A stretch of 41,887 bases of DNA, taken from the NCBI GenBank assembly GCA_003553525.1, contig PWEO01000042.1:1-41887 (forward strand). The letters are read 5' to 3'. The stretch comes from Clostridiaceae bacterium. GTDB taxonomy: Bacteria; Bacillota; Clostridia; Peptostreptococcales; T1SED10-28. The position numbers and the translations under genes were made by a program. A model generated the notes under the pieces. That model ran no database searches. It saw only the letters and a list, made by a program, of their open reading frames with translations, and was not told the origin of the DNA. Position 1 is the first letter of the stretch; each line of letters opens with the position of its first letter. Below are positions 14,956 through 24,984 of the stretch, one piece after another.

Positions 14956-15001
14956 AAAAGTCAGGGAAAACCGAATTACTCTCGGGATTCCCTGACTTTT
15001 T
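14956..15001. terminator. Terminator after tldE, overlapping the end of the convergent gene
   Basis: Arms AAAAGTCAGGGA (14956-14967) and TCCCTGACTTTT (14989-15000) pair perfectly over 12 bp, with an inner CCGA/TCGG pair, and a U-run follows on the plus strand. The right arm lies inside the last codons of the convergent Pr6Pr gene, so the 3' ends of both genes share it. Confidence 0.85.
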
Positions 15002-15629
15002 GCAGTCTGATGAATAGTAAGCTTAGGAGAAAGAAGATCAACCCTCCAATTAGAAAATTAAATGTCAACTCTGCCGTTGATAGCACTTCCATGTTCAAAA
15101 AGGGGTAGGCATAGTCTCCCAGGAGCCTTCCATAAAACAGAGACAATAGTCCATAAAGCAAAGGATACACCGTCCACTTTAAACCATCTGTCCACCGAAA
15201 GCCCCCTACTCTAACGGTGATGAACCAATCAATTAGATAGCCTGCTGGAATAATGTAATGAGTAATTACATGTATTGCCTGAAGTATTCCTGTGGTTTGA
15301 TACTCCTGGCGCAGAACAAGGAAGAAAGTCAACATGGTTATGCTAATATAAACGGCAAAGGCAGTTCGCACCTTGGAATCTGTAAAGAAATTGGTTTTTC
15401 TTCTCTTTCTGTACCCCAAGGCAAAGGATAAGCTTAGAAGTACTAATATATTGCTCTGAATTGTAAAAAGTTTAAGACCGTGAAATAAGGCTTCAAAAAA
15501 ACCATAAGAATGGTGCAGCCCATTCATTAAAAAGATATGGTTCAAAACGATCGTTCCCCAACCCAGGATCACAAGAAACCAACGAAAAACCATAAGTTTC
15601 CAGTTATTGTTCCAATAGTTTTTTTGCAA
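14976..15629 (-). CDS. Pr6Pr family integral membrane protein
   Basis: A 217-residue protein with about six membrane helices. The segments LFTIQSNILVLLSL (near residue 54), HYIIPAGYLIDWF (near 126) and YPLLYGLLSLFYGRLLGDYAYPFLN (near 152) are typical of the Pr6Pr/FAR-17a-AIG1-related family, whose eukaryotic relatives hydrolyse hydroxy-fatty-acid esters; bacterial members have no assigned function. The start is a TTG behind GAGGTGA. It follows the selenoprotein gene by 83 bases on the same strand and may share its transcript. Its 3' end lies within a terminator hairpin. Confidence 0.75.
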   Translation of the reverse strand: MQKNYWNNNWKLMVFRWFLVILGWGTIVLNHIFLMNGLHHSYGFFEALFHGLKLFTIQSNILVLLSLSFALGYRKRRKTNFFTDSKVRTAFAVYISITMLTFFLVLRQEYQTTGILQAIHVITHYIIPAGYLIDWFITVRVGGFRWTDGLKWTVYPLLYGLLSLFYGRLLGDYAYPFLNMEVLSTAELTFNFLIGGLIFFLLSLLFIRLQKVRESRE

Positions 15630-15712: not shown

Positions 15713-16117
15713 TTATTCTTGTTCCCGGTATTTCTCTATAGTACCCTCCAGGATCGCTGCGCCCTTTTCTACTACCGGAGAACACTTAAGCTTTTCATCC
15801 CGAAAATTATTTTTTAGAGTCTTACAGTTTGTAGAAGATAGTTCTTCTCTAAAAGATTCAACAAATTCCTTTGTTGCCTCTTTTACTTCGCCTTCATCAT
15901 AACCACGCTCTACTGTAAACAGTGCACCAAGAACTGCCACACCGCCGCTAATGGCTCCACAGAATTCTTCAACACCTGCTCCGCCGCCAAAGCCCGCCAT
16001 TATTTTAAATGTTTCCCCTTTAAGATTTAAATTATAGTATTCGTTGCCACCTAGCAACATGGCTTCTGCTCAGTTGTATCCTTTTTGATAATAACTGACT
16101 ACCGACTCTTTTAACAT
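15713..16117 (-). CDS. C-GCAxxG-C-C family redox protein, probable selenoprotein (in-frame TGA at codon 16)
   Basis: An ATG at 16117, six bases after an AGGCGGTG ribosome binding site, opens a frame that reads MLKESVVSYYQKGYN, then TGA (16070-16072), then AEAMLLGG and on to a stop at 15713, 134 residues in all. The C-GCAxxG-C-C family is a small putative redox protein with four conserved cysteines; the first sits in an N-C-A-x-A context. Here the later ones are present (C53 in FCGAISGG, C98, C112) and the TGA replaces exactly the first. A SECIS-like hairpin follows. I infer selenocysteine at residue 16. The alternative is a nonsense mutation, with a short product from the ATG at 16060 lacking the first redox residue. 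No selenocysteine machinery is in the window, but it is common in clostridia. The gene lies 26 bases after the YgjV-like gene. Confidence 0.82.
16043..16058 (-). promoter_or_regulatory. Candidate bacterial SECIS hairpin
   Basis: Eleven bases after the in-frame TGA, the minus strand has GTTGC (16054-16058), loop TAGGTG (16048-16053) and GCAAC (16043-16047). The apical loop starts 17 bases after the TGA and contains GGU, like the fdhF SECIS loop. Distance and loop fit the known bacterial pattern. Confidence 0.65.
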
Positions 16118-16143
16118 TTTGCGCACCGCCTTCTCTAGGAATG

Positions 16144-16776
16144 TTACTGAATTACTTTCTCGAACAAGTTTTTCTCTTTATCAATTCTTTTAAATCCCAT
16201 TTTTTCCAAGTAGATTTCATGCTTTTCATTAACTGCATAGCTGTGGAAAGTATTGTACCCTAAATTTAAAAAATAGTCTTTACGATCTTCGAAAATATAG
16301 TTTCCGATATTAAAATCCCGATATTCAGGAATTACAAAATCCAATTGAATTCTCAGAGTATTTTGATCCTCTTCCGTGGCAAGAAAAACCCCTGCGGGTA
16401 CCAGGTTTCTTAAAATATAAAGTCCTATCGTAGTCTCTCCCACTTTGAAATTATTATGGGAAAAATATTTTTGTATATCCTCCCGGTAAAAATCCAGAAA
16501 ATAATTAAAGTACTGGGTGTCTTTATCCACAGGAACCATATGGAAATACTCTTTCCGCGCGTAAATTTTCCTTAAATAATAAATATTAATAATTACAATC
16601 CCTAAGTTCATGATCCCTACGGGAAGAGCTCCGATAATAAATCCATAGGCTGCAAATATTGCCGCACCGGCTAAGTTGATCCAACGAAGTTTTACAATCG
16701 AACTCATCAATAAAGAGATTAAAATCAATACCGATGCTAAATACCCGACCCATTCAATCCATTCTATTCCAAACAT
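16144..16776 (-). CDS. YgjV-like membrane protein with C-terminal GNAT-like domain
   Basis: The first 75 residues hold three membrane helices (WVGYLASVLILISLLMSS, INLAGAAIFAAYGFIIG, GIMNLGIVIINIYYL) resembling YgjV-type bacterial inner-membrane proteins. The remaining 130 residues are soluble and look like an acetyltransferase-type fold (LYILRNLVPAGVFLATEE, then LDFVIPEYRDFNIGNYIF and LGYNTFHSYAVN...YLEKMGFKRI), although a canonical acetyl-CoA loop is not clear. Function is unknown. The first ATG (16791) has only a weak site, whereas the ATG at 16776 has GGAGG eight bases upstream, so the shorter 210-residue form is given. It probably leads an operon with the selenoprotein gene. Confidence 0.7.
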   Translation of the reverse strand: MFGIEWIEWVGYLASVLILISLLMSSIVKLRWINLAGAAIFAAYGFIIGALPVGIMNLGIVIINIYYLRKIYARKEYFHMVPVDKDTQYFNYFLDFYREDIQKYFSHNNFKVGETTIGLYILRNLVPAGVFLATEEDQNTLRIQLDFVIPEYRDFNIGNYIFEDRKDYFLNLGYNTFHSYAVNEKHEIYLEKMGFKRIDKEKNLFEKVIQ

Positions 16777-16839
16777 ATTCTGATCCTCCATTTATTCTTC
16801 TACTTACCTTCCGCTGTTTATTCTTAACATACCCTATCT

Positions 16840-20558: not shown

Positions 20559-21116
20559 TTAAAGCCCCGCAACCTCGAGGATCGCCATAATTCCTATAAG
20601 GACTGCAGCAAAGGGCAGCGTATACTTAAAAGGACTGCCTTTCATTCGTTGAAATAAAGAAACTTCACTAAAATGGTCATCTTCGATGATTTTTTTTCTT
20701 TTCAGGGTACTGTACATCGAAGCAAAGATTCCCGAGCCAATTATAATTCCCAGCATCCCTCCGATAAGACCATCGATATATCCGTTTCCCACGGCTCCGG
20801 CAATGGTACCGGGACAATATCCTAAAATGGCAAATCCCACTCCGAATATGAGTCCTCCTATCATAGAGTTTTTAATGGAGCCAGGTTTCGGATGCAGTTG
20901 AATTTTACCCTTTGGATACCAATAGCTGATCCCAAGCATTGTAACGATAACTGCGGTTAACATGATTTTTAAAACCGTAAAATCCATCAACCGTAATTGG
21001 GCTAGAATCACATCATACTTGGTCACGCCTCCCTTTTGCAGTAAAAAGCCGAATACTATACCGATTAACAGTCCAAGAAATAGTTGAAGCCTTTTATTAT
21101 CATAGTGTTTCTCCAT
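20559..21116 (-). CDS. YeeE/YedE-type sulfur transporter half, PmpB-like
   Basis: A 185-residue protein with about five membrane helices, one half of a split YeeE/YedE transporter. Full-length YeeE imports thiosulfate; half-size proteins (PmpA/PmpB) occur in pairs beside persulfide dioxygenase genes. The conserved segment is FAILGYCPGTIAGAVGNGYIDGLIGGMLG near residues 95-125, whose Cys is the family's likely sulfur contact. The first ATG of the frame abuts the GGGAGG site; ATG 21116, six bases further, is better spaced. It is the last gene of the operon, 15 bases after its sister subunit, and ends at a strong terminator. Confidence 0.85.
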   Translation of the reverse strand: MEKHYDNKRLQLFLGLLIGIVFGFLLQKGGVTKYDVILAQLRLMDFTVLKIMLTAVIVTMLGISYWYPKGKIQLHPKPGSIKNSMIGGLIFGVGFAILGYCPGTIAGAVGNGYIDGLIGGMLGIIIGSGIFASMYSTLKRKKIIEDDHFSEVSLFQRMKGSPFKYTLPFAAVLIGIMAILEVAGL

Positions 21117-21131
21117 AAACATCCTCCCTTC

Positions 21132-21644
21132 TTATAAGCTGTACTTAATCAGAGCCGTGACAATTCCTCCGATGAAAAATGCCGTCGCCGCCATCCAGCT
21201 GACAATTGAAAGTTGACTGGCGCCGCTGATTCCATGTCCGCTGGTACAACCCCCGGCCCACCGGGCACCAATGCCAAGTATAATCCCTCCGATTAACGCC
21301 GTAATAAATCTGGGAAAGAAATCCGATGAAAAGTTGGATGCCCACATTTCCGGTACCAAGGTGATTTGAAAGTCCCCCGATAAGGTGGCGGACAAAAATG
21401 ATCCGATTATAATACCTCCTACCAGCATCACTCCCCAATCCACCTGTGGGGTCTTTTGGCTGTAATATTCGTTCCTTTGCACCTTTTCTCTTTGGAATAT
21501 TTTCCGAATCATTCCGCTTACATTAAGATAAGTGGTTGATGCCGCTAAGGGCTTGTTGGAAATCCTTAGGGCAATAATATTTAAAAGCCCGATCAGTGCT
21601 CCCACCACATAGGGAGACCACTGGGTCTCTGTGAAAATACCCAA
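21132..21644 (-). CDS. YeeE/YedE-type sulfur transporter half, PmpA-like
   Basis: A 170-residue membrane protein and sister of the downstream half. It has about four to five helices and the hallmark ARWAGGCTSGHGISGASQ (about residues 125-142), in which the Cys is the conserved sulfur-relay residue of YeeE. The start codon is TTG behind AAAGGAGG with seven bases of spacing. It follows the SLC13 permease by 63 bases. Together with the downstream half it should make one channel for thiosulfate or a related sulfur anion; the direction (uptake or release) cannot be told. Confidence 0.87.
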   Translation of the reverse strand: MGIFTETQWSPYVVGALIGLLNIIALRISNKPLAASTTYLNVSGMIRKIFQREKVQRNEYYSQKTPQVDWGVMLVGGIIIGSFLSATLSGDFQITLVPEMWASNFSSDFFPRFITALIGGIILGIGARWAGGCTSGHGISGASQLSIVSWMAATAFFIGGIVTALIKYSL

Positions 21645-23554: not shown

Positions 23555-24907
23555 TTAATTATTCAAAAGGGGCTTCAGGGTTAACAGTCCACCGGAAACG
23601 ACTCTTCCGTCATAGCCTTTATTCCTTAGAAAAGATGCTGCCGTTGCCGATCGGTCACCGGAGCCGCAAAGAATGTAGATTGGTTTGTCCTTTGGGAGTT
23701 TTTCATAGTCCCGATATAAATGCTGCAAGGGAATATTAATACCATTTTCCGTTGGATCTTCCGGAGAAATATCCTCGGGCTTTCGAATGTCCACCATCAC
23801 AAATTCTTCCGGATTTAAATCCAAATATTCCACTGCAGTAATCGTAGGAAGAGGCTGTAAATCTTTTACCATTTGCTCCCATTGAGAATTTCCGTCGGCA
23901 ATGTATCCCTTGATGTTTTCAAATCCGATTCTTCGGGCATACCAGTACAGAGTTTTTAGTTTTTCCATATCGTTACCCTCTACCAAAAAGGCCACGGGTT
24001 CATCGGTATCTAGGATATTTCCTGCATAGGTTGAAAAATTCCTTACGCTGAAAAACAGGGTTCCGGGAATATGCCCGCCAAAATAAGCTTCTTTTGTTCT
24101 TGCATCAATAATGGTAATTCCCTGTTTTTTCACTTCTTCTAATTGCAGGGGTTCTAATTTCACTTCTTCCCCTACAAATTCAGCACCTTCCACATTATAC
24201 TTTTCCATTTTCTCAAAGTACCTTGGTTTGATCCTCATTCTGGCAAAGTCTTTAATAAATCCCTCTTTGGAGACTACCTGCATCTCCGGGTTATAGGCTT
24301 TTTCATAGCCCAGGGTTGAGTATGGGCGGTCCTCCATACTGTCTCCACAGGCAGAACCCGCACCATGAGCCGGGAATACCAACACTTCGTCTCCTAAAGA
24401 CAGTAGTTTTTCAAACACGCTGTCATACAAAAGACCGGTCATTTTTTCCAGGTTTTCTTCTCCGTAAAAATCCGTACGTCCCAGATCTCCCATGAACAGA
24501 CAGTCTCCCGTAAAGACCATATAGGCTTTATCCCTGCCTTCTTCATAAACCCCATAGCTCATGTGACCTAATGTATGCCCGGGGGTATGAATGCCCTGGA
24601 TGGTTAAGGATCCCACCGTTAAATTATCTCCGTCAAAGATTTTTTCTCCATAGACATGTCCTACATCCTCATGACCGGAGATATAAATTGTAGCTCCCGT
24701 TCTTTCAGCTAATTCCCTGGAGCCAATAATATAATCTTCATTCCGGTGAGTCTCTAAAATGTATTTGATTTTTAATCCTTCCTTACGGGCTTCCTCTAAA
24801 TAAATACCTATATCTCTCTTTGGATCAATAACGGCCACTTCTTTTCCCTCTCCAACCATATAGGAATAGTGAGCCAATCCCGCACTTTCAATTTGTCTGA
24901 AAAACAT
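23555..24907 (-). CDS. CstB-like persulfide dioxygenase-rhodanese fusion
   Basis: A 450-residue cytoplasmic enzyme with three domains. The metallo-beta-lactamase part (1-200) has THRNEDY (H54, D58), HTPGHTLGH (H111) and GDCLF (D135), the three-ligand iron site of ETHE1/CstB dioxygenases, and PAHGAGSACG. Residues 250-345 are a rhodanese fold without the active-site Cys. Residues 355-450 are a rhodanese with an intact loop CGSGDR (C414). This order matches CstB, which turns low-molecular-weight persulfides into thiosulfate. The frame opens at 24979, but ATG 24907 has AAAGGAGG nine bases upstream. It heads an operon with an SLC13 permease and two YeeE-type halves, and its leader carries two perfect inverted repeats. 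Confidence 0.9.
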   Translation of the reverse strand: MFFRQIESAGLAHYSYMVGEGKEVAVIDPKRDIGIYLEEARKEGLKIKYILETHRNEDYIIGSRELAERTGATIYISGHEDVGHVYGEKIFDGDNLTVGSLTIQGIHTPGHTLGHMSYGVYEEGRDKAYMVFTGDCLFMGDLGRTDFYGEENLEKMTGLLYDSVFEKLLSLGDEVLVFPAHGAGSACGDSMEDRPYSTLGYEKAYNPEMQVVSKEGFIKDFARMRIKPRYFEKMEKYNVEGAEFVGEEVKLEPLQLEEVKKQGITIIDARTKEAYFGGHIPGTLFFSVRNFSTYAGNILDTDEPVAFLVEGNDMEKLKTLYWYARRIGFENIKGYIADGNSQWEQMVKDLQPLPTITAVEYLDLNPEEFVMVDIRKPEDISPEDPTENGINIPLQHLYRDYEKLPKDKPIYILCGSGDRSATAASFLRNKGYDGRVVSGGLLTLKPLLNN

Positions 24908-24928
24908 GTGAACATTCCTCCTTTTTTG

Positions 24929-24953
24929 CGAAATATCTCCTAAGGATATTTCG
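24929..24953. promoter_or_regulatory. 9-7-9 inverted repeat in the CstB-like leader
   Basis: CGAAATATC-N7-GATATTTCG is perfect over 9 bp and begins 21 bases before the ATG. It may be an operator or an mRNA hairpin just before the ribosome binding site. Confidence 0.6.
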
Positions 24954-24968
24954 TCGATTGTTTGTTTA

Positions 24969-24984
24969 ATAGTATACATACTAT
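24969..24984. promoter_or_regulatory. 7-2-7 palindrome at the CstB-like promoter region
   Basis: ATAGTAT-AC-ATACTAT is a perfect palindrome that includes the candidate -10 TATACT (minus strand). Position and size suit an ArsR/BigR-type repressor site, the regulator class of comparable persulfide operons. Confidence 0.5.

Follow-up and report, generated by a model that had tools for sequence, protein, structure and literature searches.

The locus described here raises two questions: whether a TGA codon near the start of a small bacterial gene is read as selenocysteine (Sec), and, if it is, what such a residue might do in the protein. The gene lies on the minus strand of a 41,887-nucleotide stretch of DNA from a Clostridiaceae bacterium, which was analyzed over its whole length and is referred to below as the window. 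A preliminary description, made from the letters of the DNA, had proposed that reading through the TGA joins a 15-codon start, led by a ribosome-binding site, to the remainder of a C-GCAxxG-C-C family protein without a change of frame, and that the TGA stands at the first of four conserved cysteines with the other three intact.

An in-frame TGA codon in a C-GCAxxG-C-C family gene

The gene, its presumed signals, and its immediate neighbors are the following.

15713..16117, minus strand: predicted selenoprotein gene of the C-GCAxxG-C-C family (PF09719), 134 aa, with one in-frame TGA (from frame, profiles, and alignment)
16070..16072, minus strand: the TGA, codon 16, predicted to be read as selenocysteine, at the first conserved Cys column (all five congeners have TGA here, and the aligned relatives have Cys)
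16118..16137, minus strand: ribosome-binding-like stretch (AGAGAAGG) and spacer 5' of the ATG at 16117 (by consensus resemblance only)
16042..16059, minus strand: bSECIS-like hairpin (U)GUUGCU-AGGU-GGCAAC(G), with a stem of 6 to 7 bp, a 4-nt loop, and G at loop position 2, 17 nt after the TGA
16144..16791, minus strand: upstream gene, 215 aa, with a hydrophobic N-terminal part (84 to 93% identical and adjoining the selenoprotein gene in four congeners)
14976..15629, minus strand: downstream gene for a Pr6Pr family membrane protein (with the same adjacency in two of the four congeners)

Reading through the TGA does give a single frame of 134 residues, which runs from 16117 to 15713 as MLKESVVSYYQKGYN-U-AEAMLLGG..., has its sole in-frame TGA at 16072-16070, and ends at a normal terminal stop; a stretch resembling the ribosome-binding consensus is indeed found 5' of its ATG. 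The joined protein matches PF09719 over residues 14 to 124, that is, across the TGA (E = 7.8e-24; 84.5 bits against a Pfam cut-off of 27), and also matches the NCBIfam model TIGR01909 (3.9e-23; 81.8 bits, cut-off 47.4). By the standard code, the open reading frame covers 15713 to 16060 (115 aa). Because it starts at 16060, a gene caller would truncate the gene there and lose the key residue, as the preliminary description had foreseen. Throughout the window, this gene is the only TGA-joined frame of at least 90 codons that lies outside other genes.

The codon and its surroundings are conserved. The other four genomes of the genus all have the same TGA (five of five in total), in proteins that are 63 to 70% identical and whose flanks are conserved on both sides, and the 15 codons 5' of the TGA are conserved in these four congeners as well as in Cys orthologues. 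As checks on its reading, the preliminary description had suggested an alignment with Cys or Sec at this column and a search of the genome for selenocysteine machinery, and both came out in its favor. An alignment of 33 diverse family members spanning the class has Cys or TGA in the Sec column without exception; with the TGA written as Cys, columns 16, 53, 98, and 112 are all invariant, the last three being the intact cysteines C53, C98, and C112. As for the machinery, selA, selB, and tRNA-Sec lie in a row on one contig of the same genome, the tRNA has the anticodon UCA, and selD is present and carries an in-frame TGA of its own. Among the congeners, selA, selB, and tRNA-Sec are absent solely from two incomplete assemblies (63% and 79%). 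We consider it almost certain that codon 16 of the window gene is decoded as selenocysteine, and the interpretation given in the preliminary description is supported.

Three other readings of the TGA were weighed. If it were a nonsense mutation or a sequencing error in a Cys-type gene, the locus would be a pseudogene, and a single base is indeed all that separates the TGA from the TGT of Cys relatives; however, the same TGA recurs in five species, with both flanks conserved and the neighbors syntenic, and the Sec machinery is complete, so that a pseudogene is extremely improbable. Translation might instead start at the internal ATG (16060-16058) and produce a 115-residue protein without the first Cys. 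Such a start would coincide with the standard-code open reading frame, and none of the five Sec genes departs from this ATG, but several Cys relatives also have Met20, there simply as an internal Met. Moreover, the protein sequence of codons 1 to 15 is conserved, and an internal start would remove the first helix together with the invariant Cys column, which makes this reading very improbable. Lastly, TGA might encode some other amino acid, such as Trp, throughout the genome, a reading that gains something from the rarity of TGA as a terminator among the long open reading frames of the window (1 of 20). That one frame nevertheless does terminate at TGA, and Trp is written as TGG in the long frames (96 times); together, these observations give no sign of global reassignment. 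Nor does the window contain a further TGA-joined frame outside genes, and Cys stands at the Sec column in all aligned relatives; the chance of reassignment is practically nil. All three readings were rejected, and selenocysteine at codon 16 is the reading retained below.

Three results go beyond the preliminary description, namely, a hairpin 3' of the TGA, the confinement of this Sec to one genus, and a second Sec-containing relative in the genome. Published limits for bSECIS elements are a stem of 4 to 16 bp, a loop of 3 to 9 nt, G in the first two positions, a distance of 16 to 37 nt from the UGA, and an MFE of -7.5 or lower (PMC13188914). The window hairpin falls within these limits (6 to 7 bp, loop AGGU, 17 nt, -7.9 kcal/mol) and, as a single sequence, is not above chance; its energy is that of shuffles (z = -0.13 and 0.51), so that single-sequence energy is uninformative. 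A 6-bp hairpin with the loop AGGU or GGGC, beginning 17 nt after the TGA, is possible in five of five congener genes, with 100% of cells paired, and random synonymous recoding yields the exact stem in about 10% of trials per sequence; among these five close relatives, no two-sided compensating changes were found in the window-type hairpin. Six Cys relatives were tested for a 6-bp hairpin fitting the rules, and five of them, the two nearest among these, had none. All five Sec genes use TTG at codon 21, a codon that accounts for 17% of the Leu codons in the window. Taken alone, the window hairpin proves little.

Distribution of Sec and Cys in the family

A search of relatives found an uninterrupted frame in the sister genus and in nearly all more distant relatives. 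The sample comprised 394 genomes of the order, 45 of which had matches at E ≤ 1e-14; among these 45, a TGA occurred only in the five congeners, and the other 40 were without it, the aligned ones having Cys. The Sec proteins form one clade beside Cys proteins (tree support 96/95 and 100/98), and an exchange of Cys for Sec within the genus is thus the simplest history. The sister genus retains the whole Sec machinery, so the Cys found there is not a consequence of machinery loss. A scan of contigs with the single window protein as the query returned one Cys orthologue and nothing more, and a scan of viral contigs for relatives of the window protein found none. The congeners retain the neighbors of the gene, most notably the 215-residue upstream gene at 16144-16791, for which there was no Pfam or NCBIfam match.

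The preliminary description had stated that some members of this family are annotated as selenoproteins, and rightly so: TIGR01909 is named "C-GCAxxG-C-C family (seleno)protein," and the available portions of PMC9312934 and PMC13188914 list the family among prokaryotic selenoproteins, the latter paper including Sec-containing C-GCAxxG-C-C forms 1 and 2. The window gene adds a member to this already listed family, a statement that holds at the family level only, as those portions do not give the Sec columns of the listed forms. The listed Sec forms and the window protein have the domain and the four invariant Cys columns in common and differ in source, the listed examples in the same portions coming from a deltaproteobacterial symbiont and a marine metagenome paper. 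Other family models are more remote. The DVU_1555 family C-GCAxxG-C-C protein (NF045669) is the second-best NCBIfam match of the window protein, with 44.6 bits, far under the cut-off of 103, and the HUGP/GUXX-star fusion selenoprotein (NF045501) gives a weak match to residues 3 to 102 (27.9 bits against a cut-off of 325), in which only the first half of the 236-position profile is matched.

Resemblance to split-Soret cytochrome c and the exported paralogue

The AlphaFold model of the window protein is confident (pLDDT 92.7) and helical. Its best structural match in the PDB is split-Soret cytochrome c 1h21 (127 residues, 2.5 Å), at a Z of 13.8, which for a helical domain is about the level that the tool calls possibly non-specific and which may reflect a common helical arrangement; the runner-up reached 6.0. 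This match was found by a second structural aligner and not by Foldseek, which returned nothing below an E of 1 when the model was compared with the PDB. A common fold, if real, would concern the non-haem domain of the cytochrome. Because Z values of helical proteins may reflect such a common arrangement, support was sought from sequence. A narrow family profile found no relative in the PDB. With a broad family profile, the top PDB sequence match was 1h21, at a sub-threshold E of 0.075, with the CGA motif and the last Cys aligned. By this weak profile match, the motif and the Cys are common to the window protein and split-Soret cytochrome c, but the window protein, unlike the cytochrome, has no CxxCH haem-binding motif in its 134 residues and no signal peptide.

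A closer relative of the cytochrome is encoded in the same genome and belongs to a type that also occurs in other members of the order.

L012 86-766 (own genome, contig 88), minus strand: haem-less split-Soret-like protein with a Tat-type signal and an in-frame TGA at codon 86 (the third PF09719 match)
L124 3854-10340, L119 1382-3634, L122 3830-4870, and L120 3444-4577: neighborhoods of the exported type in relatives (from gene matches)

Read through its TGA, the L012 gene gives 226 residues with a twin-arginine-type signal. The protein matches PF09719 (4.4e-11) and 1h21 (5.4e-25), the latter having Cys at all four Cys/Sec columns, including the column at which the exported paralogue has its TGA; it also matches the NCBI split-Soret cytochrome c model, under the cut-off of that model. 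No CxxCH haem motif is present in the L012 protein. As judged from these sequence matches, the paralogue links the window family and split-Soret cytochrome c, and it is a candidate for a further selenoprotein.

The exported type is widespread in the order, with 30 near-full-length copies in 24 of the 148 genomes searched, 29 of them with one TGA. In every distinct TGA copy read (28, one of them partial), the TGA falls at the same Cys column, and one copy has Cys. The hairpin that follows this TGA is strong: its core pairs are formed in 26 of 26 distinct sequences, and two have a double change from A-U to G-C. In relatives, the neighbors of the exported type include YedE/TsuA-type transporter halves resembling the "selenium metabolism membrane protein YedE/FdhT," as well as a LysR regulator similar to a "selenium metabolism-associated" model, multi-domain FMN-binding RnfG-like proteins, TatC, and FdhD. 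One of the two Sec forms listed in the available portion of PMC13188914 may be this exported type. The open-access literature searched yielded nothing relevant on a split-Soret-like or YedE-linked selenoprotein.

A combined tree, rooted at the midpoint only, separates the two Sec groups by a long branch with full support, and the window Sec clade lies deep among Cys proteins. The simplest reading is thus that this column was exchanged at least twice, in separate events. That Sec recurs at the same position in the exported relative is the less expected part of these results. The genome has one more PF09719 paralogue, on contig 7 (L010 1450-1935, minus strand); it is all-Cys, contains a "CVCGA" motif, and does not group with the window type in the tree.

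Possible chemistry of the Cys/Sec site

Based on these comparisons, we propose that UGA codon 16 would be decoded as Sec by means of SelB, tRNA-Sec, and the hairpin directly after the codon. The predicted product is a 134-residue, mostly helical protein in which Sec16 replaces the first of four invariant Cys, and Sec16 would form one redox or metal site together with C53, C98, and C112. The site may bind a metal (iron or iron-sulfur), or it may work as a selenol/thiol redox pair. The idea of a metal arises because split-Soret cytochrome c appears to have the same fold and cysteine pattern; the selenol would mark a reactive or labile position because Sec also occurs there in the exported split-Soret-like relatives.

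The centre of split-Soret cytochrome c is reportedly one that EPR described as iron-sulfur. The PDB entry 1h21 (Desulfovibrio desulfuricans ATCC 27774) reports a novel iron centre. Since a cytochrome with a reported additional iron centre has Cys at these columns, we regard a metal site (iron or iron-sulfur) made of the four Cys/Sec residues, as suggested by the modeled fold and the cysteine columns, and a metal-free centre of purely selenol/thiol redox type as about evenly balanced, each being a tentative reading. The selenol/thiol centre would suit the annotation of the family as putative redox-active, and the evolution of Sec from redox-active Cys is the usual pattern according to the available part of PMC1794560; however, there is no CxxC or CxxU motif at Sec16, and a metal site fits the four invariant Cys and the split-Soret resemblance equally well.

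A broader proposal, which we consider unlikely as a whole, would make Sec a ligand to an iron or iron-sulfur centre, in first place among four Cys/Sec ligands. It would have this role in the window protein and also, after a history of its own, in the haem-less split-Soret-like selenoprotein that is widespread and Tat-exported; the latter would work in selenium/sulfur electron transfer and is encoded beside YedE-type transporters and an FMN protein. Whatever the chemistry, Sec occurs at one column in two groups that lie far apart within a fold: the first is confined to one genus and embedded among Cys proteins, and the second is nearly always Sec. Comparing the two would be a clean way to ask what Sec adds there. 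The link to split-Soret cytochrome c also gives a family of unknown chemistry a concrete and testable hypothesis, that of an iron centre.

Elsewhere in the window, positions 20559-21644 of the minus strand hold two adjacent half-length YeeE/YedE (Sulf_transp) genes. The break between the halves is a TAA stop followed by a ribosome-binding-like site and an ATG of its own, and these are therefore two genes, not one recoded gene. Near them and a DASS-like transporter, 23555-24979 (minus strand) encodes a metallo-beta-lactamase-fold and rhodanese-like protein, with matches under all cut-offs; this region is possibly a sulfur-handling cluster.
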